Shown piece by piece: positions 26,550 through 45,708 of a stretch of DNA of 64,000 bases (within the stretch, counting starts at the first letter, position 1; each line of letters begins with the position of its first letter). The stretch is from NCBI GenBank assembly GCA_025782575.1, contig JALGYY010000042.1, positions 1 to 64,000 of the forward strand. The letters run 5' to 3'. The notes under the pieces were generated by a model. The model was not told the DNA's origin. It saw nothing but the letters and a program-made list of their open reading frames with translations, and did no database searches. This DNA is from a bacterium (lineage in GTDB: Bacteria; Orphanbacterota; Orphanbacteria; Orphanbacterales; Orphanbacteraceae). The position numbers and the translations under genes were made by a program.

Positions 26550-27536
26550 ATGGCTCAGTCGATTTGGGTAATCGGACAGCGCGGGAAAAGTGGGATTTCG
26601 CGCGCGACCCGGGAAATTCTAGGGAAAGCGAACGGGCTGGCCGGGGGAGATTCTTCCGCGGTCACAGGGGTCTATTGCGGAGCTTCAGCCGATGGAGTCG
26701 CTGACGAAATGGCGCAATCCGGCGCCGGTTCGGTGATCACCATGACGGATCCCCGTCTCGAAACATACACTGCCGATTTCTATGTTTCGGCAATATCTCA
26801 TCTGGCAGGGGATCGAAAGCCGGACGTAATTCTGATAGCGGCTACCGCCGATGGCCGCGAACTCGCTGCCGCGCTCGCCACATCATTCGGCGGGGGGGCC
26901 GTGCAGGACTGCACCGAACTCGAGTGGGACGGGGACACTCTTCTTGGGACGCGCGCCTGTTTCGGCGGGAACCGAACTGCGGTAGTCGAAAACTGTTCAC
27001 CCGGCGCGAAGGTTTTTTCCGTGCGGCCGAATTCTTTTCCCGTACCGGATGCGGGGGGGGGAGGGGTTTCCGCGGAAGAGGTGGCGCCAGTTCTTCCTGA
27101 GGGCGATCCCCGGGTGAAAGTACTCGAGTTCATCCCGGATGCGGGGGGGACGATCAATCTACTCGACGCTGATGTCATCGTATCAGGTGGCCGCGGTCTT
27201 GGAAAAGCCGAAGGGTTCAAGGTGATCCAGGATCTGGCCGACGTACTCGGGGGAGCGGTCGGCGCTTCCCGCGCTGTCGTCGATTCCGGTTGGATCGCCT
27301 ACCCTCACCAGGTGGGGCAGACCGGGAAGACCGTCAAGCCGAAGCTCTATATTGCTCTCGGCATCTCCGGCGCTATCCAGCATCTTGCCGGAATGAGAAC
27401 AGCTGATACGATTGTGGCTGTAAACAAAGATGAGAACGCGCCGATTTTCAACGTGGCGCACTATGGCATTGTCGGAGATCTCTTTGAGATCGCTCCGGCG
27501 CTTACGGCGAAGTTTCGGGAAGTGCTTCAGGGATAA
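26550..27536 (+). CDS. etfA: electron transfer flavoprotein, alpha subunit
   Basis: A 328-residue EtfA/FixB protein. The C-terminal FAD-binding region is clear: [13 protein letters not shown] (around 212-224), [20 protein letters not shown], and [19 protein letters not shown] site lies eight bases before the ATG. The heterodimer with EtfB binds FAD and AMP. The 3' end overlaps the last 35 bases of the convergent five-TM sulfatase-fold gene, and a terminator for etfA lies inside that gene. Confidence 0.93.
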
Positions 27537-29337
27537 CCGGGAGCCGGTTATCCAGAACCCAGTCCGGAGGAGGACCCCCGTTCCATGGCGGAGCGGGGGT
27601 TTCTTTTAACCATGAATCGAGCCTGTTTTGAAGCTCCTGTGATACACCGCTCTCTTCCTGCCACACGTTAAGAGATTCAGCCGGATCTTCCAGCATGTTG
27701 TAAAGCTCAAATGTTCGATCGCCGCCTCCCGGTGTGACGATCAGCTTCCATTCCCCTGTCCGAATGGCCCGGAGCTTTCCATGCACGGTAGCCACCGGCC
27801 GTCCGGAGTTAAATCGTGGAGTGAGGGACTCACCTGACTCAGCATAGAGAACGCGATCATCGTGCGTCTCCGGCCGTTCGATCACACCGAGAAGGCTCTT
27901 CCCCTGCAGATCCTGCAACGGATCGAAATGAAGTACGTCGATCATCGTCGGAAAGAGATCGATGGTACGCACCTGGCTCTCGATGATTCTCTTCGGAAGA
28001 TTGGCTGCCGACAGGATGAACGGCACCTGAATCCCAGAGTCATAGAGATACTCGCCGTGATCGAATCGATAATCATGATCACCGAAGCTCTCACCGGTTG
28101 TCCCGGCCAGGAGAATGAGGGAGTTATGGAGCCGATCGGTCTCTTCCAGGAAACTGATGAGACGCCCGATCTGTCTGTCTACGAACCGGATTTCTTCATC
28201 GTATAGCTGTAGTGCCCGATCGACAACGGCGCTGTCGAGCATCGTATGCCCGAAGACCAGGCACCCCCGCGTGGGCCCATAGTCGAACTCGGCCGATCCT
28301 GTGGCGGAACGGTAGGGCATGGAGGGATCGGAATAATGAAGCCACGCGTGAAATGGTCTCTTGTTCCTCTCGGAAATCCAGTCGATGGCGGCCCCGGTCA
28401 CACGGTCAGCCTGAAATCGATTGGCCGTTTCCCAGTGATCGAATCCCTGTCTGAAACCGCTGTCCCCGACCGGTGGTAGAAGAGAGGCGAAAGCCCCGGT
28501 CCCGTAGCCTCGGTCCCGGAGAAGCTCGGCCATAGTGACTTCCTCCGCTCCGAGTTGATCCCACAGTGCCTGCACTCCCATGGCCCTCGGATATCTTCCT
28601 GTTAGAATTGACGAAATGGCTTGAGTTTCTCTCGGGGACACAGTGTAGCTGTGACTGAAGAGAATCCCCTCTCGGGCCAACCTGTCGATATTCGGTGTCA
28701 CCGGCCGCGAATAGCCGTAGGTGCCCAGGTGATCCGGCCTGATCGCATCGATCGTGATCAGAATAACATTCGGCCCCCGGGGGAAGTTCTTGGTGTGATT
28801 GATATAATCGGCGCTGTTGGCAGCGCCGAGCAGGAAGAGAGTGACAATGATCGCCCGGAAGGGAACGATCCGGACAAGGCTGTGCAGAAGCGTGAAACCA
28901 TCATAGACGAGGCGGCCGATTCCGAACGAGATCAGGACGAGGATGAACCGTGTCATTATCAGGGAGACGAGACGTCCTGTCTCCGTCTCCCCCCCCAGCC
29001 CGTTGCTCCAGAGGCCATAGCGGGAGATCAGAACGAGCAGGGCTGCAGCCGAAAGTATCGCTGTAAGTGCCCGGAATGACCGGCGTACCACACGATGGAG
29101 AAAATAGAGAAGGAGTGCGATCGGGAGTCCGACCAGGATGATCTTCAAGAAAGTGGCGTTCAACGCATGCGCGAAGACGGCGATGGCCAGATTGTCGAGT
29201 CCATGGCTACGGTAGAGATTGGTGCTTACCACGGAGGCACCGGAGAGCACACCGAAAAGCAGCCCGAGCAGGGCGACGAGGGAGACGCCCCGCTTCAGTG
29301 TGTCGAACGACTCCTTCCCCTTTTGGGAACGTAACAT
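27502..29337 (-). CDS. five-TM membrane protein with sulfatase-fold domain (LtaS-like topology)
   Basis: About 611 residues from ATG 29337, which has GGAGG seven bases upstream. Five membrane helices span roughly 18-38, 62-82, 88-106, 128-145 and 160-178, then a periplasmic alkaline-phosphatase-superfamily domain begins (ILITIDAIRPDHLGTYGYS, 192-210) with a GDHDYRFDHG block later. At the nucleophile site it reads RETQAISSILTG: Glu237 occupies the formylglycine position and Thr238 is next to it. Five helices plus an external domain is the layout of lipoteichoic acid synthase and related phosphotransferases, which use Thr. A phosphoglycerol- or phosphoethanolamine-transferase-like role is conceivable; the substrate is unknown. 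Confidence 0.8.
   Translation of the reverse strand: MLRSQKGKESFDTLKRGVSLVALLGLLFGVLSGASVVSTNLYRSHGLDNLAIAVFAHALNATFLKIILVGLPIALLLYFLHRVVRRSFRALTAILSAAALLVLISRYGLWSNGLGGETETGRLVSLIMTRFILVLISFGIGRLVYDGFTLLHSLVRIVPFRAIIVTLFLLGAANSADYINHTKNFPRGPNVILITIDAIRPDHLGTYGYSRPVTPNIDRLAREGILFSHSYTVSPRETQAISSILTGRYPRAMGVQALWDQLGAEEVTMAELLRDRGYGTGAFASLLPPVGDSGFRQGFDHWETANRFQADRVTGAAIDWISERNKRPFHAWLHYSDPSMPYRSATGSAEFDYGPTRGCLVFGHTMLDSAVVDRALQLYDEEIRFVDRQIGRLISFLEETDRLHNSLILLAGTTGESFGDHDYRFDHGEYLYDSGIQVPFILSAANLPKRIIESQVRTIDLFPTMIDVLHFDPLQDLQGKSLLGVIERPETHDDRVLYAESGESLTPRFNSGRPVATVHGKLRAIRTGEWKLIVTPGGGDRTFELYNMLEDPAESLNVWQEESGVSQELQNRLDSWLKETPAPPWNGGPPPDWVLDNRLPVIPEALPETSP
27574..27607 (+). terminator. intrinsic terminator for etfBA inside the convergent gene
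   Basis: ACCCCCG (27574-27580) pairs with CGGGGGT (27594-27600), with an inner TCC/GGA pair, and is followed by TTCTTTT. It lies 38 nt after the etfA stop and within the coding 3' end of the minus-strand sulfatase-fold gene. A second perfect hairpin without a T tract, GGATAACCGG-gag-CCGGTTATCC, spans 27531-27553 over the etfA stop codon. Confidence 0.65.
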
Positions 29338-29438
29338 CACATTACCTCCACGTGGCTCCATCAGCCCCATGTCGATCATCGAGACTCTCATTTATACAAC
29401 GGGGAGTTGTCCGGGGCCAGTCTCTTGTGAGATCTGAG

Positions 29439-30496: not shown

Positions 30497-31813
30497 TCAG
30501 GCGATCGCCGTTTCGGATCCTTTAGGTACTTTGGGAAGCGTTACCGTAAACACGCTCCCCTTGCCCGGTTCTGAAGCGACGCTGATCGTTCCCGACTGCA
30601 TTTCCACGATCCGTTTGGCGAGGGAAAGCCCGATTCCCGCCCCGCCATGAGTCCGTGTCTCCGAGCCGTCGACCTGGCGAAAGCTCTCGAAGATATGGTC
30701 GATCTCACTTTTGGCGATTCCGATCCCGTGATCTCTCACCGAAAATGTGACACCATCCTCGCTGATAGTCGTGCTGATCTCAACCCGGCCCTTCTTCTCT
30801 GAGAACTTGATTGCGTTGTCCAGAAGATTACGTAGGACGCGGCTCGTTCGGGGCGCATCGAACATCGTTTCCGTCATGGACGGGCTGAGCCGGAGATCGA
30901 GATAAACCTCTTTCTCTTTGAAGTCTCGCTGGAATCCCTCGGTCACTTCATGGATCAAGTCGTTCAGATTCGCCTTCTCGGGAAGAGCAGTACTACTCTT
31001 GTTCATCAAATCCGTCAGGTCGAGCATCTGATCGATCAGATCGGATAATTTTTCGCTTTGACGGACTATGTTGTCCGCGAATTCCTGGCGCATGTCCTCG
31101 GTTACGTCCGGGTAGGCCAGGCACTGTGCGAATCCGATCACACAGGTCAGCGGCGTACGCAGTTCATGCCCCACGTTCGCGAGAAACTCGTTCTTCATCG
31201 AGTCGAGTTCCTGGAGACGGACGTTGGAATCTTCGAGCGTCTCGTTCGCCTGCCGCAGATCCTCGTAGAGTTGGACGTTGTCCATGACGAGGCCGGAGAG
31301 GTCGAGAATTGAGGCAAGCATCTCTTCGTCGAACGCGTTCATGTCTTTGGAATCGATACGCGCTCCGAGAAGCAGGATTCCTACCAGTCTTCCCTTGGCC
31401 CGGATCGGAGTGGCATGCGTGAATTTCTGATCCTTCAGGAATTGAATCGTGGATGATTCCCGTTCCGGGAGACCATCTCCGCGAATCCCCGATAACCCTG
31501 TGGAAGCTTTGAGCCTTCGGGCGAACACGCCCGATGGCCGGAGATCCATATGTTCCTTGGCGTCTTTTTCACGAATACCGCGGGCATATATGCGGAACCC
31601 ATCCTCATTCACTTCTTTGGCGAGGAGAATGGCGCGGGAAACCGAGAGAAGCCCCATCACGGTGAGGAGAATCAGGCCGTCGAGGCGCCGGGCTTCCTGC
31701 ACCGACACGAGTGACCGGCTTAATTCGAGAAGGGTTTCGAGACCGAGAATTCGCTTCCGAAGAGAGGTCGCGTCTCCGGCGTCCAATGAGGGCGAGTAAT
31801 CGATTCCGGCCAT
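30497..31813 (-). CDS. soluble GAF-domain sensor histidine kinase
   Basis: A 438-residue kinase without membrane helices. Residues 20-185 look like a GAF domain, followed by a coiled coil (LRQANETLEDSNVRLQELDS). The dimerisation domain has NEFLANVGHELRTPLT with phospho-acceptor His216. The HATPase region shows the N box (LRNLLDNAIKFS), DHGIGIAKSEIDHIFESF and GGAGIGLSLAKRIVE. It is the last gene of the array that starts with the giant surface protein and lies 10 nt after the STAS gene. No response regulator is adjacent, so its target is elsewhere or it acts on the partner-switching proteins. It converges on moaB with 20 nt between. Confidence 0.9.
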   Translation of the reverse strand: MAGIDYSPSLDAGDATSLRKRILGLETLLELSRSLVSVQEARRLDGLILLTVMGLLSVSRAILLAKEVNEDGFRIYARGIREKDAKEHMDLRPSGVFARRLKASTGLSGIRGDGLPERESSTIQFLKDQKFTHATPIRAKGRLVGILLLGARIDSKDMNAFDEEMLASILDLSGLVMDNVQLYEDLRQANETLEDSNVRLQELDSMKNEFLANVGHELRTPLTCVIGFAQCLAYPDVTEDMRQEFADNIVRQSEKLSDLIDQMLDLTDLMNKSSTALPEKANLNDLIHEVTEGFQRDFKEKEVYLDLRLSPSMTETMFDAPRTSRVLRNLLDNAIKFSEKKGRVEISTTISEDGVTFSVRDHGIGIAKSEIDHIFESFRQVDGSETRTHGGAGIGLSLAKRIVEMQSGTISVASEPGKGSVFTVTLPKVPKGSETAIA

Positions 31814-31823
31814 AGGGCGCCCT

Positions 31824-32213
31824 TTAGGTCTGGTTCAGTGTCTCTTCGGTCAGGAGGTGCTGAATCGCCTCCTCGCGATCGTCACGGATCTGGAGGAACT
31901 CGAGTACATTCAGCACCTCGAATATCCTCTTGATTGCATCGGGTACATTAAGAAACACGACGCCGCCACCATCCGAGTTCAACTCCTCCACGAGAGATAG
32001 AAAGATGCCGATTCCCGCCGACCCGATGAACGATACATTCTCGAGGTCAATCAGGAATCGAATCGATCCCCCTGCGCGATTCTTTTCGATCTCCGCCAGA
32101 ACCAGAGGCAAACCTTCAGCATCAAATCGCCCCTCAAGCATAAGGGCGCTGATGAGGGGATCCTGCTGGATCGTATCGGCGTGGATTTCCAGTGTTGCGG
32201 TACTTCGGCTCAT
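31824..32213 (-). CDS. STAS-domain anti-anti-sigma factor (SpoIIAA/RsbV type)
   Basis: A 129-residue STAS protein. The segment DLENVSFIGSAGIGIFLSL (56-74) aligns with the phosphorylation loop of SpoIIAA (LSFMDSSGLG): Ser65 matches the phosphorylated Ser58, the preceding Asp is Gly64, and the second Ser is Ala66. The extended C-terminus (AIQHLLTEETLNQT) is acidic. It should be the antagonist released by the phosphatase and phosphorylated by the kinase encoded just upstream. Its ATG overlaps the kinase stop codon (ATGA), which implies matched synthesis of the two. Confidence 0.9.
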   Translation of the reverse strand: MSRSTATLEIHADTIQQDPLISALMLEGRFDAEGLPLVLAEIEKNRAGGSIRFLIDLENVSFIGSAGIGIFLSLVEELNSDGGGVVFLNVPDAIKRIFEVLNVLEFLQIRDDREEAIQHLLTEETLNQT

Positions 32214-32779
32214 ACCACGTCTCCTCTTCGAAGTGCCAGCACACCTGCCTGCCCTTCCCGACCTCGATCGAGAATCTTGAGCAGGAACAGTTGGTTCCGG
32301 CCGTCAGCTGTTCTCCTGTAACGCATCCGATTCATCGATTTTCGGATGATCTGAAGGCCGAATCCCCGGCCTCTTCGCCTGACCCTCGGATCCCTGACAT
32401 CCGGAGGAGGAATCATCTCTGGGTTGATGCCGGACCCCCTGTCGATGAACGAGAGACAGACCCGGCGTTTGGTCATGTGTATGCGAATCATGATTCGCTC
32501 CTCAGGATCAAAACCGTAAGCATGTTCGATTATGTTCAGCGCCGATTCGTATGCGGCGATCTCCACGCATTGGAGTTCTTGAATAGACAATCCATGACAA
32601 TCACCGACCATGTTCAGAAAAGCACAGAGCGGACCGACTGCTTCTATACGGGCGGGAAATTCGATCTCATACTGCGCGCCTATCGGCAGATCGAGCGGAG
32701 CCCGCTCTTCGGCCTCGTCACGAACCAGAGTGGCCGTGGCAGTCTCATCAGGCAAGTCTGTTCCCCGTTCGTCTTTCAT
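32210..32779 (-). CDS. RsbW/SpoIIAB-type serine kinase / anti-sigma factor
   Basis: A 189-residue protein with a GHKL (HATPase_c_2) domain: N box ESALNIIEHAYGFD, G1 box SFIDRGSGI and G2 box RGRGFGLQIIRKSMN. A polar N-terminal extension of about 30 residues precedes the domain. Proteins of this type bind and block a sigma factor or another target, and phosphorylate the STAS antagonist. It lies between the SpoIIE phosphatase and the STAS gene in one operon. No sigma factor gene is nearby, so the released target is not visible here. Confidence 0.88.
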   Translation of the reverse strand: MKDERGTDLPDETATATLVRDEAEERAPLDLPIGAQYEIEFPARIEAVGPLCAFLNMVGDCHGLSIQELQCVEIAAYESALNIIEHAYGFDPEERIMIRIHMTKRRVCLSFIDRGSGINPEMIPPPDVRDPRVRRRGRGFGLQIIRKSMNRMRYRRTADGRNQLFLLKILDRGREGQAGVLALRRGDVV

Positions 32780-32823
32780 TCTCGATCCCCTATTTCCGAA
32801 TATCGGTCGTAAACAGTGATCGC

Positions 32824-34389
32824 TTAAGCCATTACCCGGACACTTGTCTTCTCATCTGCCGTAGTTGAGGCTCTTTTGAGGACAAGCAGGGTAATATCGT
32901 CGCTTTGGGTCATTCCATCGGTAAACTGGCGAATTCTCTCAACAACGCTTTCGATCAGATCCTGTGAATTGCGGTCATACCCATTCCGAATGACATCGAG
33001 AAGCGAATCCATTCCGAATTCCTGGAGATTCTCGTTAGTCGCTTCGTTCACGCCATCCGTGTACTGGACGATTCCGTCACCCGGGCCGAGTACGATCGTC
33101 TGATCTTCGACACGATCATCGAAACGCTTGCCGGCGAAAATGCCGAGCGGAACACCGGTGGTGCGCATCAGGCTCTGGAGTCCTGACTTCGCGTTGAAGT
33201 GAATCAGCGGATTGTGTCCGGCTCCGGAGAACCGGAGAGTGCCGGACTGAAGATGGAGAATCCCGTAGAACATCGTGATGAAGGTGCCCCGGCGCATGCT
33301 CGGGCAGAGCATCCGATTCAGCGCGATCAGTGTTTCGGAAGGAGTGTCAAACCGTGGCCCGTGAGTTCGGAGGAGCGCGCTCGTCATCGCCATGACCACG
33401 AGTCCCGGAATCCCCTTGCCGGAAACATCAGCTACCGTAATTCCCACATGCTCATCGTCCAGGGGAATGACATCGTAGTAATCTCCGCCCACTTTTTGAG
33501 CGGACTGATGAAAACCGTAGGCGTCATACCCCTGGATTGCGAGATTCGGCCGGGGCAACAGGCGCTCTTCGATCTCCTGGGCGATCTCGATCTCCTTGCC
33601 GAGGCGCTCCTGCTCGACGAGCTCTTCCTGGGCGCCTTTGAGGCGTGTCGTCATCTCGTTGAACTGTCTCGCCAGGCGGCCGATTTCCGTCCTGCTCTTC
33701 ACATGAATCTTGTAATCCAGATTGCCCCGCCCGATCGCCTCCGACCCTTTGGTCAGGAGGTTGATAGGGCTGACGATTCGGGAGACGAGTATGTAGGAAA
33801 AGAGGATGCCCACCAGAGCTGCGACCGACATCACTTTGATCGTACTGTGCCTTGCCTCGTCGATCACGCTGTTGACATGGCTCTTTCTCATGCCGAGATA
33901 GACGCTCCCGAGAACGGATCCGTCGCTGTATCGAATCGGAACGGAAACTTCCATTACCTCATCGTCATGGTGAAACGTCTCGCCATCGGAGTGGGCGAGA
34001 GTCACTTCGCGTGGGGTGAGGCCTGCTCTCTTCTTGTAGTCGGTTTCAACATCGCGAAGGTCGTCCGCGCCCCGGATCTTCCCATTCGGATCGACAACAA
34101 CGGCGTAGGCGATTTCGCTGTTTTCGCTCAAAATATCTTTGATCAGTGGAGTGAGTACGAATTCAGGAAACTCATCGAGTAGCGGCGCGGCACTCAGCGA
34201 GGCAAGACTGCGGCACTGGGCGAGCAAGCGGCGCTCCGTTTCCGCTTCCAGAAAGACCTTTTCCCTGTCGAGGATGATCTTGGCGGCGGTTCCCGTCAGG
34301 ACCGTGATGAGAGTCATGACGGAGAGGGCGAAAATCAGTTGCAGACTGAAGGTCCGTTCCTGTCGCCCCTCATTGCTAGCGTGCTCCAC
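32824..34389 (-). CDS. membrane SpoIIE/RsbU-type PP2C serine phosphatase with sensor and HAMP domains
   Basis: A 521-residue protein: membrane helix 17-37, an extracytoplasmic sensor (about 40-185, single-Cache-like, with YAVVVDPNGKIRGAD and SVPIRYSDGSVLGSVYLGM), membrane helix 187-205, HAMP 203-255, a short coiled coil, then the PP2C domain from about 280. PP2C metal-binding motifs are present: GGDYYDV (301-307), ITVADVSGKGIPG, SGAGHNPL, YTDGVNEA and SDDITLLVL. It would dephosphorylate the STAS protein in response to an envelope signal. Its start overlaps the end of the PorV/TPR gene by 14 nt, which ties the regulator to the surface-protein genes. Confidence 0.92.
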   Translation of the reverse strand: MEHASNEGRQERTFSLQLIFALSVMTLITVLTGTAAKIILDREKVFLEAETERRLLAQCRSLASLSAAPLLDEFPEFVLTPLIKDILSENSEIAYAVVVDPNGKIRGADDLRDVETDYKKRAGLTPREVTLAHSDGETFHHDDEVMEVSVPIRYSDGSVLGSVYLGMRKSHVNSVIDEARHSTIKVMSVAALVGILFSYILVSRIVSPINLLTKGSEAIGRGNLDYKIHVKSRTEIGRLARQFNEMTTRLKGAQEELVEQERLGKEIEIAQEIEERLLPRPNLAIQGYDAYGFHQSAQKVGGDYYDVIPLDDEHVGITVADVSGKGIPGLVVMAMTSALLRTHGPRFDTPSETLIALNRMLCPSMRRGTFITMFYGILHLQSGTLRFSGAGHNPLIHFNAKSGLQSLMRTTGVPLGIFAGKRFDDRVEDQTIVLGPGDGIVQYTDGVNEATNENLQEFGMDSLLDVIRNGYDRNSQDLIESVVERIRQFTDGMTQSDDITLLVLKRASTTADEKTSVRVMA

Positions 34390-36400
34390 CTGTCAGTTCC
34401 TCCGCCTTCTGTATGGCAATACGAGCCCGCCTGAGATAGGTCAGCGCCTGGTCATCTTCCGGGTCGACACCCAGGATCTTTTCCCATACATCGACCGCTT
34501 CGGAGATTTCACCACTCGTGTAGTGCTCCATACCGGTGAACAGGTAAGCCTGTTTCAAGTAGGAATCCACTTTTTCGTACGTCGGAACCAGGTCGTAAAC
34601 GAATTCGAAGTACCGGATAGCCTCTCGATTCCGACGTTGCCGGAACTCATCGACGCCCGCCTTGTACATCCGCTCCGCCTCACGAGCCTCTTCCACCGAA
34701 AGCACACGCGGCGCCCGGCGTACCGCCGGTTCGCTGCTTTGCCCTGCGGCCTCTTCTCCCTCGGGAGGGGCGGCGTCCAGCCGCCTGATTTCACGCCTGA
34801 GATCATCCCGGCCGGGGCGGAGGGCGATTGCCTCGCTATAACGCTGGCGGGCCGTGGCCCGATCCTTTCGGTCCCGGTACCAGTTCGCCTCAGCCACCAG
34901 CGCATCCACGCGGCGGGCGATGAGCGAATCGGTACGAGCCAGGTATCTCTGAACATCGGCGTTGTCCGGCTCGATCTGGAGAGCGGAGCGGAATTGCTCC
35001 TGGGCGGCCGGGAATTCGGAGAGCGCCAGATACTCGATCCCCCGGGTGAGGGCATTACTCACCTCTCTACTTCGCGCTGTGGATCGATTCAATTGGACTG
35101 TGGCACTGGCGAGTTTGTCGGCAGCCTCATCGTCACTCGGATCGGCCGCGGCCGCCAGGGAGTACTCTGATACCGCTTCCAGAAGATTTCCGGTGCGGGC
35201 TTGCCTGATGCCTTCTTCCAGGTGCTTCCGAACTCTCGACTTCACATGAAATTCGTTGGCGGTTTCATTTACAGGATCCCATAGAAGGGCCCGTTCGAAC
35301 GATGCTTCCGCCAGGGCATACTCGGCCCGGTCGAAATGGACCATCCCCTCCCGAATATTCGTTTCAGCCTGAATCTTTTCGTTCCTTGCAATCTCCTCCT
35401 GCGTCCTTAGGGCAAGAGCCTCCTCATCGCGGAGTGCCCTATCGGCGAGGAGCATATCCAGACTGGAGCCGAAGCTCATGGAAAGTTCCAACCGGTGCGC
35501 GGTGCCGAGCTCCTGTGAGCCGAACGAATAGTCGAGTCGGCCGCCGAGAAGTGCGAGCCCCATTCCCGTCGACCAATCATCGGGACCCCCTCCCGCGCGG
35601 AACGAAAGACCGTGTGGCAGGTCCATCTCTGAGCCGAATCGAGTTCGACCGCCGCTCTCTTTTCCCTGCTCGAACGCAAGCACAAGCAGGAGCCTGTCGC
35701 GGAGCGACCCGCGGAGCGGAAGGGAATACGCCAGTCCGCTCCTGATGAGTGTCGGGAGATTCTCCTCTTCGGCACGCAGAGTGAGCCGAGGTTCGAGCGC
35801 GTTTCGAATACTGATGCCGAAGGAGAGATTACTTACAGACCAGACGCTTCGATCGTGCTCACTTGATCGGAACAGGAAGCCGAGGTCAGCGCCGACCGCA
35901 GTTGCTGTTTCGTTGTCGATGGACTGCGTTTCCACTTTGATGCTCGCCCCGAATCGTGCCGGTCCGAACGGCGGCAGAGCATAGGAGAGGAGCCACTCGT
36001 TCTGGACATTCGAAAACTCGCCCAGTTCACGGCCTCCTGAGTCGAATTTGCGGATTCCGTCCACTCCGTACCGGGCATTCGCAAACGCCATGGTGCCGAG
36101 ATCAAGAAACGGGTGAACATATCCCACAAAAGTATATTGATTTCCATCTGTGAAAGGTGAGGTGTAAAAGAACGACACCTGCTTGACCTGAGTTCCCGCG
36201 AGGCCGGCCGGATTCCAGGTGGTGGCGGCCGGTCCCTCCGCGACGGCAACGTACGCACCGCCAAGGGCAAGGGCCCGCGCCCCGGCACCGAAGGCGAACG
36301 GCGACTCCGTGCCGCCACTCTCGTCTGCAGAGGGCGCACGGGCCGGCACGATTGCCAGAAGAAGGGCGCTAGTGAAGCACAGCGATCTTGTGAATCGCAT
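34376..36400 (-). CDS. PorV/UPF0164-type outer-membrane barrel fused to TPR domain
   Basis: About 674 residues from ATG 36400, preceded by GGAGGGAGGG. After a signal peptide (ending ARAPSA) residues 30-310 show the PorV/PorQ pattern: AGARALALGGAYVAVAEGPA, ATTWNPAGLA, then a beta-barrel with FGSEMDLPHGLSFRAGGGP. The C-terminal half is a long helical region of TPR-like repeats (ALAEASFERALLWDPVNETA, FPAAQEQFRSALQIEPDNAD, EAVDVWEKILGVDPEDDQAL). In Bacteroidota PorV escorts type IX secretion cargo to the surface. Here the gene overlaps the 3' end of a giant protein gene that has a T9SS-like tail. The TPR part would lie in the periplasm. Confidence 0.82.
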   Translation of the reverse strand: MRFTRSLCFTSALLLAIVPARAPSADESGGTESPFAFGAGARALALGGAYVAVAEGPAATTWNPAGLAGTQVKQVSFFYTSPFTDGNQYTFVGYVHPFLDLGTMAFANARYGVDGIRKFDSGGRELGEFSNVQNEWLLSYALPPFGPARFGASIKVETQSIDNETATAVGADLGFLFRSSEHDRSVWSVSNLSFGISIRNALEPRLTLRAEEENLPTLIRSGLAYSLPLRGSLRDRLLLVLAFEQGKESGGRTRFGSEMDLPHGLSFRAGGGPDDWSTGMGLALLGGRLDYSFGSQELGTAHRLELSMSFGSSLDMLLADRALRDEEALALRTQEEIARNEKIQAETNIREGMVHFDRAEYALAEASFERALLWDPVNETANEFHVKSRVRKHLEEGIRQARTGNLLEAVSEYSLAAAADPSDDEAADKLASATVQLNRSTARSREVSNALTRGIEYLALSEFPAAQEQFRSALQIEPDNADVQRYLARTDSLIARRVDALVAEANWYRDRKDRATARQRYSEAIALRPGRDDLRREIRRLDAAPPEGEEAAGQSSEPAVRRAPRVLSVEEAREAERMYKAGVDEFRQRRNREAIRYFEFVYDLVPTYEKVDSYLKQAYLFTGMEHYTSGEISEAVDVWEKILGVDPEDDQALTYLRRARIAIQKAEELTGGAR

Positions 36401-39400
36401 GATCCCTCCCTCCATCGTGATACTTGAGTTCGATTGACGCCAGATAGGCGCCGCTTAAGACACGCTTTCCGTCTCCGTTCCTCCCGTCCCAGGGAAGCTC
36501 GATCAATCCGGCTGCGCTGACATCCTGTTCAATGGAGCGGACCGGAGTGCCGAGACCGGTGTAAATGCGAATAGCGGCGTGGCACGGGCTCTTGGCGTAA
36601 AACGCGACGATAGTTCCCCCCTCGCTCGTGGAGAACGGATTCGGATAGTTACGAACGGAAGCTTCGAATTCCTTTTTCGCGAGATGGGCCGGGGATGATG
36701 GATTGGTACCCGGATCATTCACCGCCCGGGTGATGGCCTGGTCCGACTCGGTGAAGCTGAGTTTATCCACAGGGAATTCGAACCGGAACGACTCGACTTC
36801 GATCTCGGTTGCAAGAGTGAGGTCGAGTGTGATTGAAAGTGTTTCTCCCGGGACTACCGCCAGCGGTGTGTCGAAGGGGAACAGGATGTGGTCGGTTTCG
36901 AGTATGCCGTCTGATGTCGTCGCGCCGTCTCCGGCAGGTGTTGCCCACGCATCGGAAAGGACAGCCGATGGCGAGAGAGGGTTCCCGTCTCCGTCCTGGA
37001 CTTCAAGGCGGATGCTTTTCAGGTGAAGGTCCGATACGCCGATCCCACCCGAGGAGAGGATGCGTATCTGTCCCACATCGTCCAGTGATGACCCGGCAAC
37101 AGTCGTCGGCGGGATGTCGAGATCGACCCAGACGGTCACCCCTTCACTCTCCCGGCGGATACGAAGGGGGGTGGAACGATAAGCGCTGTTCCCGTCGATC
37201 GTAGCGGCCACGGGTGCGCCCGAATTGTTATCTGCTATGTCGATGCCGCTCTCGAAAACCACAAAGCGATAGTCTCCCGGCAGAGCCCCATCCCGAATGT
37301 CGACGGCCAGGACGAGTGTTGTGTCTTCCCCCCCCTGCAGTCGAAGAAATGATCCGGAGAAGGGAATCTCCAACGTGGCGCTCCCCTGATTCCGAGGTAC
37401 GATCGAGGCGAGCACCCGACCGTCATCCAGGACGGTTGCCCGTTCCAGAATGGATCTGATTTCAACCGAATCCCCCGCGCTGTTTTCCAGGCGAATCGAG
37501 AAACCTCGAATTCGGATATCGGCGAAGGAGTCCCCCATGGCGTGGTGGAACCGGAGCGAAAGCGCTTGTCTATCGAGAGTACCCGGCACCACTTCTGTCG
37601 TATCGGCCGGATCGAGACCGCTGACCTCGATCGAAACGGCCGGCTTCACGATGCGGGTTACCAGCGGGATGTCACGGCTGATCCGCACTTCTGGATTGAT
37701 GTCCGGTTGAAGCTGGAAGTCGCCGAAGAAAACCAGGTCGTCGAGGTCGAGCTGGACCCTCCCGACCGGAGCCGACGAGGCGACGCGGGCAATGATTTCG
37801 ATCTCCGAAGTCTCTCCGGTTCGGACCAGTATGTTGTCAGTTAACGGAAATCGAACAAGGCTCCCTTCCCGAACCCAATCGGAACCGGAGAAGAGAGGCG
37901 ACAGGCCTCGGTCGGTAATTTCTACCCAGTCAAACGGGAAGTCACCGTCAGCAAGTACGAAAGAGATCGAACCGATTCCGACCTCGGCGATAGCACCCGT
38001 TCCCTCGCTCTTGAGATCGAATGAGAGGATGGTGACCGTATCGGACCGATTGCTTTGGGAAAGGAGCGTGTCGGCTACCAGTACTGTGAGGCCCTGAGGG
38101 GGATTCACGATCGCGGTGCCGGCTGAGAATATCGGATCGTTTGATGTGACTGAGACCGGCAGGCCCGAGTTTCGATCGTAAGCCGCGACGGCGTTCGATG
38201 GTTCGATCACCGCCCGGAACGTCTCAACCGGCGAAGTGAGAGAGAGGTCGAGAGAGAGTGTGATCGTCCTTTCACTGCCGGGATCAAGAACGATGGGTAC
38301 GGACAACGGGATAGAGGCGACGTCGCTATCCAGGTCGGCCACCGAAAGTGAGCCAAGCGCATCGAGCTTGAGCCGGTCGATGAAATCGGCCGGAGCGATC
38401 AGATTGCCCTGCCCATCATCGAAAGATACCCGAACACTATCCACTCGTACGGCCGCGTAAGAAGCACCCTGGTCGGGATGGGAAAAAGTGAGCCGAAGTA
38501 TGGACAGATCTCTCGCCCCCCGAATCACATCACCCTCGATCGTAGACGCACCGACGATGACCAGCCCGGTGGGAGGGGATTGGACTGTCACGAATGCTGA
38601 CTGGGTAATGAAAGTCGTATCGGGGAGACCGGTTGACCGGCGGACACCGATTGCGTTCCCCGTGAATCGATGGGTCCCTTCCTCGTCCGCCACCACGACC
38701 CAACGGAAACGCGCCTTTCCTCCGGGGGGGAGGCTGACAAGGCTATCGCCGGGTGGCTCGAGCACGATCGTCAAAGGGAATACTTCGCAGCCGAAGCTGT
38801 CCGGCCGTGCCATGTCGAGCGTGTCCGACTCGTCAACATTCTCGAGATCCATGAATACTTCATACTGCTGCCCGCGGGAAACAGGGCTATCCGGAACGGT
38901 GATTGCCGCGAAGAGCGGAATACCTGACACGGTAATCTTCGTTGGTGAGACGACCGGCCCGTCAACCGGCCCGTCATTCGAGGAGAGCATTTCGATTCCA
39001 TTCTCAGGAATGCGCAGGCGAAGTGTGCGGGAGTCCCGGGCGGAGTCGGAAAAATCGATACGTACATTGAGTACGATCCCGCCGGGGTCCACGACGAGCC
39101 CGGGAGAAATCCAACCCCAACCGGTCCCGTTGAAGAACAGATCGCTGACGAAAGTCTCGTTCGATTCTCCGTATGTGAGATAGACGCGGTCGATATCGGT
39201 CGTATCCGCCGTGCCACTGTCGTTGTCCACGGAGAATTCGAGGAGTGCGTCTGATTCACAGGCGGCGGCGGGTAATCGGAACCGAAGCGCAAGCCGTCCG
39301 GCGGTGCCCGCTGTCGCGCCTCCCCCTTCAACGTCATACATGACGATCTGGGATGAAGAGAGCGAGCGGATGCGGATGGAATCAGAGGCGATAGGGAACG

Positions 39401-42400
39401 GACCGATCATGAGCCGATCGGATTCAAATACGAAAGAAGATGCTTCGTGGATCGCGACCGCGGCCCAATCACCGTCGGTCAGGCAGGAGGTGCCGATGTC
39501 CAGCAGAATGGCGTACTCGACGCTTTCCCCCGGATCGAGCCCGGAGCCAAGACCTGTGAAGGTCGCCTCCCCTTCATCGAAGACCGCTTCGGCCAGGACG
39601 GCACCGCTCGCCGACTCGATCAGGCTCGCGGACCGTGCAATCGAATCCGGTGGAGCCGACGTACCGCTTGACCGGTTCGAAACAGTCAGTTCGCGAAGTT
39701 CCAATGAGATGGAATCCAGATTGCCGAGTGTAAAGCGAAGAGCTTCAACCAGGACAGAACCGGCAAATGCCGAGTCCGCTTCCCCCGGCATGACGTTGCT
39801 GACGACGACCCCCTGGAGGTCACCGATGATCTTGATGGTCGGTGAAGTCGATCTTCTGTCGAGCGGTCCGTCGTTACTCGACGTCATATCGATTCCGCCC
39901 ACAGGGATCGAGAGTTCGACCACGCCACCGGAGGCCGGCGTTTCGGCGATGTCCACGGTGACAAAAAACCGTTCCCCACCCGGAGCTACCGGTATGCCGA
40001 GGTTCGACCAGGTCCACTCTCCGATCCAGCCGAGCAGATGGACCAGGGCGTCATCGCCGCTTCCCCCATCAAACAGACCGTTCCCCCCATCTTTCCAGAG
40101 GAGTACTTCGGTGATGTCCCCCTGCTCACCGGGGTTCCCGGAATTGATGATCGAGACCTTGTGGAGCGTGTCCGGTAGAAAGCCGTTTGAAGGGAGATCG
40201 AAGACCATCGCAAGGGAATCGTCAGCGCCGGCCGGGAGTTCAGTGGAGAAGCCCCCCGAAGTGATGATCTGAGCTGCGATCATTCCGTCGACAAACTGAT
40301 TCCCCGGTGAGTCGAGCGGGAATGTGGCATCGATAGCTGTCCCCACGTTGAATTCGAAGTGATTCAGTGTACCGACCTGTACGTTGAGTTCCGCTCCATC
40401 GGGGGCTTGCAGAAGCGACAGATCACCGGTGACCAGAAGGCTGGTCGTGTCCCCCCCGGCCATGACCAATCCAAGGCCGTTCAGTGTCAGGAGCCCGTTT
40501 TCGAACGAGCCTTCACCGAGAAGGTCCTCGCCTTGATCATGCCGCCCGTTTCCATCCTCGTCGTTGATCAACCGGATGGCATTCCAGACACCGTCCCGGT
40601 CGGCCGTGCTGCCGCCCGCCTGAATCGCATTCGTCAAGGTGAGCTCCGTTAGCGTCCGGGCAGTGCTGTAAAGATTGACGAGCTCGAGACGCATCAGGCT
40701 GATCGAATCGGCGCCGGGTTCGAGAATCAAACCGTCAACGGCGAGCGCACGAACCTGAACAAAAGGAGGGAGCACAGTAAGAGAGTTGAACTGAGTCGTC
40801 ACGGTGCCGGCAAAGATGGCCCCGTTCCCATCGAGGCCGCGCAGGCGGAGATCGAGAACGTAGTCTCCCGGATCGAAGCCTTCCGGCACATTCGCGGTGT
40901 CGAATAGAAGTGAAACTGCCTGGCTGTCCGCGGGAATCGTCGGTGCGGCCGAGATCGGAGCGACAAAGCTGTCGACACCGTCGCTGAAGAAGAGAGCGCT
41001 GGCGATATCGAGTTGGAGAGACGTTCCCCCCTCGTTCTTGACACCGATCCAGAACCCCGATGCCTGGCCGGCGACAGCCGTTGTCGGGAATAGCGAATGA
41101 ACGAGATCCTCGATGGAGGGAGGATTGCTGACAACCCATGATCCTTTGGAACCCGCCTCGAACGATCCCACACCATCGCCGAAGGCGGTCACGGCGGAAG
41201 CATCCACATCGATTGTGACGGCCGCGCCCGTTGTAGCTTCGGTGCCGACGGTTACGTAGAAACGCAACGTATCCGTCTGGCCATCTGAGAGCGTGTCGGG
41301 TGGGGATCCGATCAGCGAATCCGAGTACTCCGCGGAAATATCCTGTCCATCGATTTCGAAGCGGAGAGAGAGGGAGATCCCGGTCAGAGATCCGCCGGTA
41401 TCATTCCGGTAGATCACATCCACCGGAATGCCGCTCTCACCCTGCGTGACGCCTTCTCTTGATTCCACGGCCGAGACGACCACAAGACCATTGTTATCAA
41501 GCACAGTGATAGTCGCTGTATCTGACACAGCGCCGGGGAGAGAGGCGACTACCGATCCGTCACCCGGTGCCGTGGTGGTCAGAAGGCCGGCAGGGCTAAT
41601 TGTCCCGATGCCTCCCTGAACTGACCAGTTCACAGCGTCATTCGTGCTGTTACTGTCTCCGTCGATCGTGGAAGCGGAAAATAAAGATCGATTACCCAGA
41701 ACGACAATCGTGCTGTCCGGTGCGATGTCGATCCAACGTGTCGGGCCCGGCACGACGACGATTGTATCGCTCGCCCCTTGCACCGTCCCGGCGGAAACGC
41801 GTACCACATCTTTGCCGGTCACATCGGCTTCGAACAGGCCGGTTGCAGGGTCGATGATCCCGATCGACTGAGCGCCGCTCCATGTGAGCGGCGGAAGGCC
41901 GGCGATCGCGTTGCCGTCCGAGTCCCACCCCGCTGCCGAGAAGGAGATGGATTGTTCCGTATTGAGAAGGGCGCTCACGGGGGAAACTGTCAGCGAAGCG
42001 AGTGCTCCCACCGTGATCGTGAACGCAGCCGTATCGACAACGTCGTCGACGCCCGCCACGACTAAACCGGTCCCGGGAAGGACAGGATCGAAATAGCCTG
42101 TGGAGTCTATTACGCCTAGTCCGGTCGGTTCAGTCCAGGCAGCGGAGGGAATGTACCAGTTGAAGTCGCCGTCGACAGCGACGACAAAAAATTGAATCGT
42201 ATTGTCAGCGGCGCTGGTGATGCTGTCCGGCCCGACGATGATGTACGCCGCGCTTCCGGGGATCACCGTCAGAAAGAGGCTGTCGCTGACTCCGGATGCC
42301 GTTGCAATGATAAAGGCCTGTCCGACCGTGTTCGGGTCGAGGAAGCCGGTGTCCCTGTCAAGAGCGCCTACGGCGCCCGACATCGACCATGTCGGCGTTA

Positions 42401-43694
42401 TGGTCACAGGATTTCCGTCGGCATCCGAGCCGGTCACTGTGAACTGAATCGTAGTGTCGGTATCGACTGTGTCCACTTGCGGCAGGATCTCAATTCCCAC
42501 CAGAGGGCCGATTACCGTGAGGGCGAGAGAGTTGCCGTCTCCGGCGACTCCGTTCACATCCCCTTCAGGTAGGATCTGGGGAGCGAATGTCGTCGATGTA
42601 TCATCAACGAAGGGATCGAGACTCACGTACGTGGGGACTCCCACATCCGGGATATCCACTTCCCAGGTGATTTCGAAAATGCCGTCGCTGGATATTGGCG
42701 CCGGAAACCCGATAATCAGGCTGTCGGGTGAGGAGAGGTCGGTCCAGATCGGAGTATTGCCGTTCCAGACTATTTTTGTGGCGGCCGGTTGCCTGAAATC
42801 GGCGGGGAGGGGGATGAGAAACCGGTTGACCCCCGTATCAATTCCTCTGCCCGCGAATCGCAGATCGGCAAACGTGACGAACGAGATTCGCTGGTCCCGT
42901 GCCATGATGTTCGGTTCCATCTCGGCCATCCCGGACTGGGCGGCGGGGAGCAGATTGGGGTCAGGCAGAATCAGGAAGTAGACCTTCGGTTGCTTTGTCG
43001 AATCCGCCTGATCGGTAGCGCCGAGAATCAGATTGGTATTGATTGCCGCTGTTTTGTTATTGGTGTCGGAACCGAATTCACTGACGTCGTCTTGCCCGAT
43101 AATGCCGACGCCGGGCTGGAGTGTGTCCGGAACGACGACCACTACCTCTTTCACTGCTCGAATGAGAAGGCCGAAGTTGGAATCCGGGTTGGCGATCCAG
43201 AACTGGACGAGAGGAGTGATCTCCCACTGAATGGAATCGTCGGAAGAAGAAACGGTAGCGACCGATATGGCCGACCCGTCGTATGCGGCGCCCGCTTTAC
43301 TCCAGACTGTGCCGGGGGATCGTTCGTTCCAGGTCGTCCCATTGCCTGGTGAGGAGTCCCAGGATTCCAGGACACGATGCAGGCTGTAGTTCAGCACGGT
43401 GCCGTCCAATCCGCCGAAGCGGGTCAGAGCAACTGTGAGAACGGACGAGTCGATCGTGGCGCCCGGCAGGAGGGGGGGCATCGCAAACTGCAAAAGTGCC
43501 CGCCGCACCTTGCCCTTGTTTCCGACAATGAGGCTGTCCGCTGAGCCATACTCGAGTGTGGGAAACTTCTGGGAGATATAGGTATCCGAGGCGAAGGTGC
43601 TGTCCAGATGCCAGACCAGATCCACAGGTGTCGCCTGCAGAATCGACGGACAGCAAAGTAATGCCATAAAGATATATGAACGAGCAATTCGCAC
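36369..43694 (-). CDS. giant secreted multidomain protein with DNRLRE, Ig-like and FlgD-like modules
   Basis: About 2,441 residues. The best start is GTG 43694: AGGGAG lies seven bases upstream and it gives a normal signal peptide (RSYIFMALLCCPSILQA); in-frame ATGs at 43766 and 43757 would add a basic extension. Domains in order: a DNRLRE-type segment (about 25-240; DTYISQKFPTLEYGSADSL, LHRVLESWDSS, WEITPLVQFWI), Big_2/Ig-like repeats (VDTDTTIQFTVTGSDADGNP), several long beta-sandwich repeats with a recurring SSNDGPVDGPVVSPT phrase, and a C-terminal FlgD-like module (NYPNPFSTSEGGTI to AIHKIAVLH). It should be exported and surface-attached, perhaps through the PorV-like protein encoded next. 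The total repeat count was not determined. Confidence 0.85.
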   Translation of the reverse strand: MRIARSYIFMALLCCPSILQATPVDLVWHLDSTFASDTYISQKFPTLEYGSADSLIVGNKGKVRRALLQFAMPPLLPGATIDSSVLTVALTRFGGLDGTVLNYSLHRVLESWDSSPGNGTTWNERSPGTVWSKAGAAYDGSAISVATVSSSDDSIQWEITPLVQFWIANPDSNFGLLIRAVKEVVVVVPDTLQPGVGIIGQDDVSEFGSDTNNKTAAINTNLILGATDQADSTKQPKVYFLILPDPNLLPAAQSGMAEMEPNIMARDQRISFVTFADLRFAGRGIDTGVNRFLIPLPADFRQPAATKIVWNGNTPIWTDLSSPDSLIIGFPAPISSDGIFEITWEVDIPDVGVPTYVSLDPFVDDTSTTFAPQILPEGDVNGVAGDGNSLALTVIGPLVGIEILPQVDTVDTDTTIQFTVTGSDADGNPVTITPTWSMSGAVGALDRDTGFLDPNTVGQAFIIATASGVSDSLFLTVIPGSAAYIIVGPDSITSAADNTIQFFVVAVDGDFNWYIPSAAWTEPTGLGVIDSTGYFDPVLPGTGLVVAGVDDVVDTAAFTITVGALASLTVSPVSALLNTEQSISFSAAGWDSDGNAIAGLPPLTWSGAQSIGIIDPATGLFEADVTGKDVVRVSAGTVQGASDTIVVVPGPTRWIDIAPDSTIVVLGNRSLFSASTIDGDSNSTNDAVNWSVQGGIGTISPAGLLTTTAPGDGSVVASLPGAVSDTATITVLDNNGLVVVSAVESREGVTQGESGIPVDVIYRNDTGGSLTGISLSLRFEIDGQDISAEYSDSLIGSPPDTLSDGQTDTLRFYVTVGTEATTGAAVTIDVDASAVTAFGDGVGSFEAGSKGSWVVSNPPSIEDLVHSLFPTTAVAGQASGFWIGVKNEGGTSLQLDIASALFFSDGVDSFVAPISAAPTIPADSQAVSLLFDTANVPEGFDPGDYVLDLRLRGLDGNGAIFAGTVTTQFNSLTVLPPFVQVRALAVDGLILEPGADSISLMRLELVNLYSTARTLTELTLTNAIQAGGSTADRDGVWNAIRLINDEDGNGRHDQGEDLLGEGSFENGLLTLNGLGLVMAGGDTTSLLVTGDLSLLQAPDGAELNVQVGTLNHFEFNVGTAIDATFPLDSPGNQFVDGMIAAQIITSGGFSTELPAGADDSLAMVFDLPSNGFLPDTLHKVSIINSGNPGEQGDITEVLLWKDGGNGLFDGGSGDDALVHLLGWIGEWTWSNLGIPVAPGGERFFVTVDIAETPASGGVVELSIPVGGIDMTSSNDGPLDRRSTSPTIKIIGDLQGVVVSNVMPGEADSAFAGSVLVEALRFTLGNLDSISLELRELTVSNRSSGTSAPPDSIARSASLIESASGAVLAEAVFDEGEATFTGLGSGLDPGESVEYAILLDIGTSCLTDGDWAAVAIHEASSFVFESDRLMIGPFPIASDSIRIRSLSSSQIVMYDVEGGGATAGTAGRLALRFRLPAAACESDALLEFSVDNDSGTADTTDIDRVYLTYGESNETFVSDLFFNGTGWGWISPGLVVDPGGIVLNVRIDFSDSARDSRTLRLRIPENGIEMLSSNDGPVDGPVVSPTKITVSGIPLFAAITVPDSPVSRGQQYEVFMDLENVDESDTLDMARPDSFGCEVFPLTIVLEPPGDSLVSLPPGGKARFRWVVVADEEGTHRFTGNAIGVRRSTGLPDTTFITQSAFVTVQSPPTGLVIVGASTIEGDVIRGARDLSILRLTFSHPDQGASYAAVRVDSVRVSFDDGQGNLIAPADFIDRLKLDALGSLSVADLDSDVASIPLSVPIVLDPGSERTITLSLDLSLTSPVETFRAVIEPSNAVAAYDRNSGLPVSVTSNDPIFSAGTAIVNPPQGLTVLVADTLLSQSNRSDTVTILSFDLKSEGTGAIAEVGIGSISFVLADGDFPFDWVEITDRGLSPLFSGSDWVREGSLVRFPLTDNILVRTGETSEIEIIARVASSAPVGRVQLDLDDLVFFGDFQLQPDINPEVRISRDIPLVTRIVKPAVSIEVSGLDPADTTEVVPGTLDRQALSLRFHHAMGDSFADIRIRGFSIRLENSAGDSVEIRSILERATVLDDGRVLASIVPRNQGSATLEIPFSGSFLRLQGGEDTTLVLAVDIRDGALPGDYRFVVFESGIDIADNNSGAPVAATIDGNSAYRSTPLRIRRESEGVTVWVDLDIPPTTVAGSSLDDVGQIRILSSGGIGVSDLHLKSIRLEVQDGDGNPLSPSAVLSDAWATPAGDGATTSDGILETDHILFPFDTPLAVVPGETLSITLDLTLATEIEVESFRFEFPVDKLSFTESDQAITRAVNDPGTNPSSPAHLAKKEFEASVRNYPNPFSTSEGGTIVAFYAKSPCHAAIRIYTGLGTPVRSIEQDVSAAGLIELPWDGRNGDGKRVLSGAYLASIELKYHDGGRDHAIHKIAVLH

Positions 43695-43791
43695 AGACTT
43701 CTCCCTTGGAACCCTCCGGGGGAAGAGGGCGTTCCTTCTGTCAAAAAGTCGGCGCATTCTGGCCATTCCTTGAGACCCGGGTATCCGGCCC

Positions 43792-43974: not shown

Positions 43975-45708
43975 TTAGCGGCCTGAGATGTATCCGAGGG
44001 CGCGAAGCCGTTCTCGCTCATCGTCGGAGAGATCGATCGGTTCACCGGTCAGGTGGGCGCCTTCATACTGGATCAAAAAAGTGCGGGGGGGATGATCGGG
44101 CGACTCGGGCAGAATGAGCGAGCCCTCGGGGCTGTTACCTGGATCGATTCCGAACCGCCCGTCCGGCGGATGAAAACCGTCACGGCCGATCCGGACGAGC
44201 TGGGGGTCTTCATCACCGTTGATCGTGAGGCGAAACGTAACAGGTGAATCGGGTGGGGAGGTCCGGAATCGGATTCCCCCGGCCCGGCCTTCCGCTCGGA
44301 AGCGGAAAAGGCGATTCCCTGAAGCTTCAACCGAAACGACATCCGGCGCACTCGGGAGGACTTCCTGGAGAAATCCTTGCGCCCTGATTTCTCCTTCGTA
44401 GATCAAGGAATCCGCGCCGGCGGGCCAGCTCACCGTCCATCCGGAACCTGTGGTTTCATTTCTCAACTGGTTAAAGAGAACGGCCGCCTGTTGTTTGTGG
44501 GCGGCGATAACGTCGCATTGTTCGGCCGGGTCGGTCTCTCTGTCGAACAGCTGCGTCCCACTACCCCCCCAGATCAGCTTGAGCCTCGCCTTCATTACCG
44601 CCATTCCGTATCGACCCTCCCGTGAGGTGGCGGCAAAAAAGGAACGCCCCCGTGGAGCATCCGTCTCCCCGGTCAGCAGGGGGCTGCCCCGCAGGCCGGG
44701 GGGGAGGGGAAGTCCTGCTCGCCTCAAAAGTGTGGGGTAAACATCGATGATCCCGACAGGAGTGGGAATCGGGAAGAGGGATGGCTTTCGTGCCGGGTCG
44801 CGCACGATCATCGGCACCCTTATGACCTCATCGTAGAACGTGAAAGAGTGTCCCATCGATCGGTGGTCCTGGAATTCTTCCCCATGATCGGCAGTAAGCA
44901 GAACAATCGTGCTGTCCGCCATCCCACCCTCTTCCAGGCCATGGAGCAGCGAGTCGATCCAGGAATCGACATAGCGCACTTCGCCGTCATAGAGGGCGAC
45001 GAGCTCGGCGAGATCATCCTCGTTCATGAGCGAGTCAACGGGCATGTACCTCGAAATCGTTTCATAATCGCCGACCAGGGACGACTCCCGGTTCGGCACA
45101 TATCGATTTCGATAATCCCCCGGCGCTCCGTACTCCCAGTGGGGATCGAAAAGATGGACGAGAAGGAAAAGCGGCTTACGCCTATTTCTCTCCTTCATCC
45201 AATCGACGGCGGCTCGTACGACCGTTTCGGCGACCGGTTCGTTCCCCTCGTCGAAACGGTAGTTCTCACCAATGCCGAAGTCCTCAAAATGGTTGAAATC
45301 AGAATCGAATCGATAGCTCGACGAAGTATAGATGTGGCTGACGAACGCGGCAGTCTCGTATCCCCCTTTTCGAAATTGACCGGCGAGTGTAGGGAGATCG
45401 GATCGTATGGAGAGATAGTCATTTCCTGCGCCATGCTCCCATGGATAGCGGGATGTCAGCAGTGATGCGAACGCAGGCAATGTCCAGGGGGCTGTACTGA
45501 ACGCCGATGTGAAAACTACTCCCTCATCCGCCAGCCGGTCGATCGCCGGGGAGGTCTCGAACTCGTAACCGTAGCAGCCGAGGTGATCGGCACGCATGGT
45601 ATCGATGACGATGAGAAGAAAATGAGGGCCTTGGGCGGGCCGGCCGCACGACAGAATCAAAGTCGTGAGGAGCATGAGGAACATCGCAGGAATGGCGTAC
45701 CGGTTCAT
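43975..45708 (-). CDS. sulfatase-fold lipoprotein 3 (no formylglycine site)
   Basis: A 577-residue protein with a lipoprotein signal (LILSC, Cys21). Fold markers are VIDTMRADHLGCYGYE (34-49), LFDPHWEYG and TADHGEEFQDH. At the nucleophile site it reads WTLPAFASLLTS (75-86): Thr76 replaces the Cys/Ser and Phe80 replaces the Arg of the sulfatase motif. After the catalytic domain there is an extra beta-rich region of about 150 residues (GNRLFRFRAEGRAGGIRFRT), absent from the other three paralogues. It ends RERLRALGYISGR, a tail also seen in proteins 1 and 4 (LRGLGYVD, LLALGYVTGK). It follows the acetyltransferase gene by four bases. Confidence 0.85.
   Translation of the reverse strand: MNRYAIPAMFLMLLTTLILSCGRPAQGPHFLLIVIDTMRADHLGCYGYEFETSPAIDRLADEGVVFTSAFSTAPWTLPAFASLLTSRYPWEHGAGNDYLSIRSDLPTLAGQFRKGGYETAAFVSHIYTSSSYRFDSDFNHFEDFGIGENYRFDEGNEPVAETVVRAAVDWMKERNRRKPLFLLVHLFDPHWEYGAPGDYRNRYVPNRESSLVGDYETISRYMPVDSLMNEDDLAELVALYDGEVRYVDSWIDSLLHGLEEGGMADSTIVLLTADHGEEFQDHRSMGHSFTFYDEVIRVPMIVRDPARKPSLFPIPTPVGIIDVYPTLLRRAGLPLPPGLRGSPLLTGETDAPRGRSFFAATSREGRYGMAVMKARLKLIWGGSGTQLFDRETDPAEQCDVIAAHKQQAAVLFNQLRNETTGSGWTVSWPAGADSLIYEGEIRAQGFLQEVLPSAPDVVSVEASGNRLFRFRAEGRAGGIRFRTSPPDSPVTFRLTINGDEDPQLVRIGRDGFHPPDGRFGIDPGNSPEGSLILPESPDHPPRTFLIQYEGAHLTGEPIDLSDDERERLRALGYISGR

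Follow-up and report, generated by a model that had tools for sequence, protein, structure and literature searches.

How a cell senses the export or assembly of a huge surface protein is poorly understood, and the main regulatory circuit tied to the type IX secretion system (T9SS) in the literature that we found is PorXY-SigP. The question is raised by an operon on contig C34 (JALGYY010000042.1) of a 4.88-Mb genome from Candidatus Eisenbacteria. There, in the 64,000-nucleotide stretch analyzed here (the window), the gene for a giant secreted protein is followed by genes for a PorV-family outer-membrane barrel with tetratricopeptide repeats (TPRs), a SpoIIE membrane phosphatase, an RsbW-type serine kinase, a STAS antagonist, and a histidine kinase. 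As we read it, with moderate confidence, these genes would make up a surface-assembly unit that carries a switch of its own for sensing the envelope: one T9SS cargo would be encoded together with its PorV escort, and the switch would be dedicated to this pair, with the STAS protein as output.

A partner switch inside a surface-protein operon

The six genes form an uninterrupted minus-strand run (30497-43766) in the 5'-to-3' order just given. An initial reading of the DNA made without database searches (the sequence-only reading) had described six tightly packed genes with junctions of at most 45 nt. All six are present, and the limit needs only slight revision: the largest junction is the 47-nt overlap of the giant and PorV genes, which shrinks to 32 nt if PorV starts at its better ATG (36400). 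The PorV and SpoIIE genes overlap by 14 nt, a 44-nt gap separates SpoIIE from RsbW, RsbW and STAS overlap by 4 nt, and 10 nt lie between STAS and the histidine kinase gene. A strong promoter and terminator between the PorV-like and phosphatase genes had been named as grounds for giving up a single unit. The overlap at that junction leaves no room for an intergenic promoter or terminator, and a pattern scan found neither there; between the operon genes in general it found none beyond chance, the only sigma-70-like sites being two within the giant gene.

The switch itself is composed like RsbU-RsbV-RsbW and SpoIIE-SpoIIAA-SpoIIAB, with a SpoIIE/PPM phosphatase, a HATPase_c_2 kinase, and a phospho-Ser STAS antagonist encoded together and their catalytic residues retained. 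In a residue census over homologs, the kinase Asn was present in 49 of 49 and the Glu in 48 of 49, and the PPM Asp residues in 49 of 49 where aligned; the predicted phosphorylation site of the STAS protein is likewise invariant (Table 1). Pfam matches and these residues bear out the Cache-HAMP SpoIIE phosphatase, the RsbW-type kinase, and the STAS protein with its phospho-Ser that had been proposed from sequence alone. The supposed GAF histidine kinase held up in part: its HisKA-HATPase_c architecture is confirmed, but no GAF domain was found in the protein from the window, and among the relatives only L071 has a match, a weak one (E 5.6e-4). At the system loci, a histidine kinase gene has so far been seen in Eisenbacteria only.

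Conservation of the PorV-switch order

The six-gene order is the same in all four family relatives with enough sequence (G001, G002, G003, and G004; Candidatus Eisenbacteria). Longer open reading frames (ORFs) that overlap them hide the G001 kinase as well as the STAS and phosphatase genes in G004; the kinases were placed by a separate search. Short contigs end within the system in G005 and G006, where the parts present are consistent with the order. Beyond the family, a kinase-profile search of 386 genomes with reading of the neighborhoods revealed the switch behind a PorV gene in 13 other families, KSB1 and Calditrichota among them, or at least 14 families in total. A named scan contributed members of KSB1 and Calditrichota, as well as individual records labelled Cloacimonas, Deferribacteres, Bacteroidetes, or Actinomycetota, labels that may reflect binning or naming. 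Altogether, PorV stands directly ahead of the switch at 50 non-redundant loci. Loss of synteny in close relatives would have counted against the operon as a unit; synteny is instead kept in the family and far beyond it.

This adjacency is not a general property of RsbW loci. No PorV turned up among the roughly 1,130 ORFs of the 77 other RsbW loci that were examined, versus its presence at the 50 system loci; these counts are not population frequencies, the loci having been picked by kinase score. The one PorV match in the control set, L144, is a system locus whose genes were joined in ORF calling. We consider it quite improbable, and strongly disfavor the idea, that a general stress switch merely rides in the operon, functionally unrelated to the surface protein. 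RsbW/STAS/SpoIIE sets without PorV do occur in the same genomes (L084, L095, L097, and L100), as do giant-PorV pairs without a switch, and both fit such a chance neighborhood, but the PorV-switch adjacency persists in 14 families despite differing flanking genes, and at least two kinase lineages are tied to PorV.

In a kinase tree with few columns, a single clade of the Eisenbacteria and fused kinases was not rejected (p 0.46), but a single origin of all PorV-linked kinases was rejected on adding G035 (p 0.001). The PorV-switch association may have arisen more than once, or kinases may have been swapped; either one favors a functional link.

The architecture of the switch differs outside Eisenbacteria. 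In 12 of the 13 outside families, kinase and phosphatase form a single membrane protein with the kinase at its N terminus, in the order HATPase_c_2, transmembrane segment (TM), sensor, TM, HAMP, SpoIIE; in G035, the phosphatase gene is separate (Cache-HAMP-SpoIIE). The fused form also occurs in G350, whose genome is a single contig. The phosphatase usually extends into a transposase-type helix-turn-helix (HTH) region (HTH_28/HTH_23, 3e-6), often with TPRs. The STAS domain is very strongly conserved across these families, and the protein usually bears a transposase-type tail of ~100 aa that matches HTH_21 in L162 (5e-6) and that is compact and helical in the AlphaFold2 model, at a pLDDT of roughly 90 or higher. 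Judged by these profile matches and models, the HTH-type tails of both proteins suggest DNA as the output. Neither the fusion nor the tailed STAS is a feature of the RsbU-RsbV-RsbW or SpoIIE-SpoIIAA-SpoIIAB systems.

Variants of the switch were also seen. L158:9965-15937 and L172:1844-6760 encode fused RsbW-SpoIIE proteins of 1,638-1,990 aa, each after an ORF of ~255 aa, possibly a side branch of the same switch. At L107 and L121 (family f30), STAS and RsbW genes adjoin a SpoIIE::RsbW fusion of reversed domain order, giving two kinase copies per locus. At many KSB1-type loci (L080:17912-18916, L134, L137, L140, L141, L149, and others), the STAS gene is followed by genes for an Obg-type GTPase and a DprA-like protein, both assigned by their N-terminal sequence. 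In Bacillus, Obg has a link to the sigma-B switch, so its presence in this neighborhood may not be chance.

Proposed escort and cargo, and the type IX machinery

The assignment of the second gene rests on agreement between sequence family and predicted fold, which sustains the earlier proposal of a PorV-like barrel with TPRs. The window protein matches the PorV family profile NF033709 with an E value of 6.8e-23 and 81.7 bits, slightly below the NCBI cut-off of 90, and all 18 of 18 homologs match the family at E<=0.001. A profile search matched it to the solved PorV 6h3i_F (8e-19), and the best Foldseek match of the predicted barrel was PorV 8gl6_F of the T9SS-RemA-CTD complex (E 1.8e-10, TM 0.64 by target). 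The predicted barrel resembles a solved PorV with a bound cargo C-terminal domain (CTD), to which the window protein adds a TPR domain.

The giant protein has an N terminus that appears hydrophobic by eye and a C terminus with a FlgD_ig match (6.7e-8) and a weak PorU-tail match. It is not among the Por_Secre_tail matches listed, and its FlgD_ig end is akin to the C-terminal domains that Por_Secre_tail matches in the same genome. In most outside families, the protein upstream of PorV ends in a closely similar FlgD_ig-like CTD motif; no upstream giant was seen at the system locus of G059. The earlier length of 2,441 residues applies to a start at GTG 43694, which has the better ribosome site and is the likelier start, while translation from the first ATG would give 2,465 aa. 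A T9SS translocon is encoded in the window genome (SprA_N 6e-15), with SprA located not at the operon but elsewhere, and SprA is present in 14 of 17 further system genomes.

The giants do not form one conserved family, a possibility that we rejected: within KSB1, homology spans most of the protein; Eisenbacteria and KSB1 giants are similar mainly in their last ~100-270 residues. An apparently uniform KSB1 giant size of 2,600-2,650 aa proved to be an artefact of the 10-kb flank (L177 has 2,651 aa versus 3,184 for the full L080 copy). Paralogous giant and PorV-TPR pairs free of a switch lie at L074:558-12876 (G000:C2, the window genome) and L075:6627-16794 (G001:C37). The window genome also holds 75 Por_Secre_tail-like C-terminal domains and ~ten SpoIIE phosphatases; by these domain counts, Eisenbacteria is rich in T9SS-type surface proteins and has many partner switches.

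A sulfatase gene lies 208 nt upstream of the operon on the same strand, and the gene downstream is convergent; annotated neighbors include sulfatase, GNAT, ETF, bactofilin, and other genes. Three sulfatase-family genes flank the operon (27502-29391, 43975-45708, and 47772-49811), two of which also have counterparts near it in several family relatives.

Table 1. Coordinates and supporting evidence for features of the operon in the window
Feature	Position	Strand	Basis
Giant secreted protein	36369..43766	-	ORF; start codons and ribosome sites; homologs L069-L071
DNRLRE/CBM96 domain near N terminus of giant	43155..43598	-	Pfam CBM96 1.2e-8; NCBIfam DNRLRE 7.5e-20
C-terminal FlgD_ig/Por_Secre_tail-like domain of giant, putative T9SS sorting signal	36429..36626	-	Pfam FlgD_ig 6.7e-8; motif shared by upstream proteins of nearly all other loci
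Outer-membrane barrel of the PorV family, TPRs at its C terminus, ATG 36400 the more likely start	34376..36415	-	PorV_fam profile, structure matches
PorV-like beta-barrel part	35471..36292	-	AlphaFold2 model, strands at residues 78-315, mean pLDDT 85
TPR part, residues 319-674	34394..35461	-	Pfam TPRs; all-helical in AlphaFold2 model
Membrane phosphatase TM-sCache_3_2-TM-HAMP-SpoIIE, GTG start	32824..34389	-	Pfam SpoIIE 4.2e-42, HAMP 9.8e-15, sCache_3_2 5.3e-8
SpoIIE/PPM catalytic domain, every metal-binding Asp retained	32872..33459	-	Pfam; residue census over homologs
RsbW-type serine kinase (HATPase_c_2), catalytic Glu78 and Asn82 retained	32210..32779	-	Pfam 7.4e-20
STAS antagonist, 129 aa, without HTH tail	31824..32213	-	Pfam STAS 1.1e-13
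Ser65 of STAS protein, predicted phosphorylation site (FIGSAGIG)	32019..32021	-	Ser in 34/34 homologs
Soluble HisKA-HATPase_c histidine kinase	30497..31813	-	Pfam HATPase_c 3.1e-30, HisKA 1.6e-16

Proposed signal and output, and competing explanations

A mechanism can be proposed in which the CTD-bearing giant would be a T9SS-type cargo and the PorV-like barrel its private outer-membrane escort or anchor, with the TPRs toward the periplasm. The SpoIIE phosphatase is predicted to cross the inner membrane, and its Cache domain would sit in the same periplasm as the TPRs. The Cache domain would read a change in the periplasm, be it a ligand or how far the PorV-TPR/cargo complex is loaded, and toggle the phosphatase, which would remove the phosphate placed on STAS by the RsbW-type kinase. 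The phosphorylation state of STAS would be the output, acting on a non-sigma target through the HTH tails of STAS and phosphatase in most other families and through some other partner in Eisenbacteria, where the histidine kinase may stand in for the tails.

Several observations weigh against such a unit. G070 and G341 keep PorV and the fusion without an adjacent giant gene and without a SprA match; an unrelated gene fills the giant's slot in both (that of G070 encodes an RNB ribonuclease), PorV is short in both, and no TPR match was found in G070. The cargo is thus not always encoded next to the switch. G035 also has no SprA match, and its kinase falls outside the clade of the others. Among fused-type loci without PorV, five are cut by contig ends, and L158 and L172 are real exceptions. 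The giant-PorV pair occurs without any switch in the window genome (L074) and in G001 (L075). Lastly, the STAS protein and phosphatase of the window lineage itself have no HTH tails and are accompanied by a histidine kinase absent elsewhere, and the output there may differ.

That last point bears on whether the switch controls a sigma factor after all. The sequence-only reading had noted that the module encodes none, and indeed no Sigma70_r3 or SigBFG match was found on the contig or near the system in ten genomes, and none above the SigBFG family cut-off anywhere in those ten; in this, as in its place within a surface-protein operon, the module is unlike the RsbUVW and SpoIIE-SpoIIAA-SpoIIAB systems. 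A classical switch could still act in trans, the RsbW-type protein sequestering a sigma factor encoded elsewhere until dephosphorylated STAS sets it free to act on the operon or on a regulon of surface genes. In Eisenbacteria, the separate kinase and the STAS without a tail have a canonical look, and seven Sigma70_r3 matches in the window genome are candidate targets, but the kinase-phosphatase fusion and DNA-binding-type STAS tail of most outside families are ill-suited to sigma sequestration, and we regard this explanation as rather unlikely. The non-sigma target suggested earlier accordingly stands on the tails and on the lack of nearby sigma genes, and is less secure for the window lineage, which has no tails and could use a sigma factor from another locus. 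The further suggestions of that reading, sensing of export or assembly and a switch acting on its own operon, are candidate features. The window genome also offers a more classical partner-switch setting at G000:C13:358019-366351, with two sigma-factor genes 2-8 kb away from another SpoIIE gene.

The switch proteins might alternatively govern secretion itself rather than transcription. Bordetella BtrU/BtrV/BtrW provides the precedent: how this partner switch is linked to type III secretion is not yet understood, but the assumption is that secretion is governed by BtrU and BtrW (PMC7498569). The switch at our locus is co-encoded with secretion genes, but the HTH-type tails of most outside families suggest DNA, and the export machinery (SprA) is encoded elsewhere in the genome. 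Such a post-translational gate seems improbable to us. The Btr locus also differs from the T9SS-type system of the window in that it includes an ECF sigma factor (BtrS), no PorV, and no giant cargo.

Returning to a surface-assembly unit with its own switch, single steps of the proposed scheme have precedents. In Porphyromonas gingivalis, PorA is a CTD surface protein with PorV as a binding partner, and it acts back on the expression of T9SS genes through PorXY-SigP (PMC7712824), although this circuit combines a two-component system with an ECF sigma factor and has no partner switching. Each type B CTD cargo binds a PorP-like barrel of its own (PMC9143113), as with SprB-SprF, a large surface adhesin and the outer-membrane barrel dedicated to it, while the window partner is of the PorV family, has TPRs, and comes with a switch attached. 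In Vibrio fischeri SypE/SypA, the kinase and phosphatase roles fall to a single protein, and the STAS protein itself serves as output for a surface trait (PMC8256260); the fusion found outside Eisenbacteria adds membrane-sensor, HTH, and often TPR parts, and a tail on STAS, whereas in Eisenbacteria kinase and phosphatase are separate. Their combination was found in no paper searched. Our literature search, which did not reach subscription papers and preprints, found none that treats SpoIIE or partner switching together with PorV or type IX secretion, none joining PorV with SpoIIE and STAS, and none joining KSB1 with type IX secretion, in line with the earlier statement that no described system of this composition was known.

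A more specific version of the proposal, which we put forward tentatively and hold to be possible rather than probable, is an undescribed and widely inherited system in which a membrane kinase-phosphatase would read the loading, at the outer membrane, of a T9SS cargo on its own PorV-TPR partner. A STAS protein whose DNA-binding tail is of a domesticated transposase type would be released as a transcription factor, and partner switching would control DNA binding directly, without any sigma factor. If DNA binding is true, the HTH-type tails of STAS and phosphatase would constitute a new partner-switching output. A single operon, its gene order maintained in 14 families of bacteria that are mostly uncultured, supplies candidates for sensor, escort, and output. 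In sum, this locked order points to an undescribed way for a cell to sense and regulate the construction of its surface.

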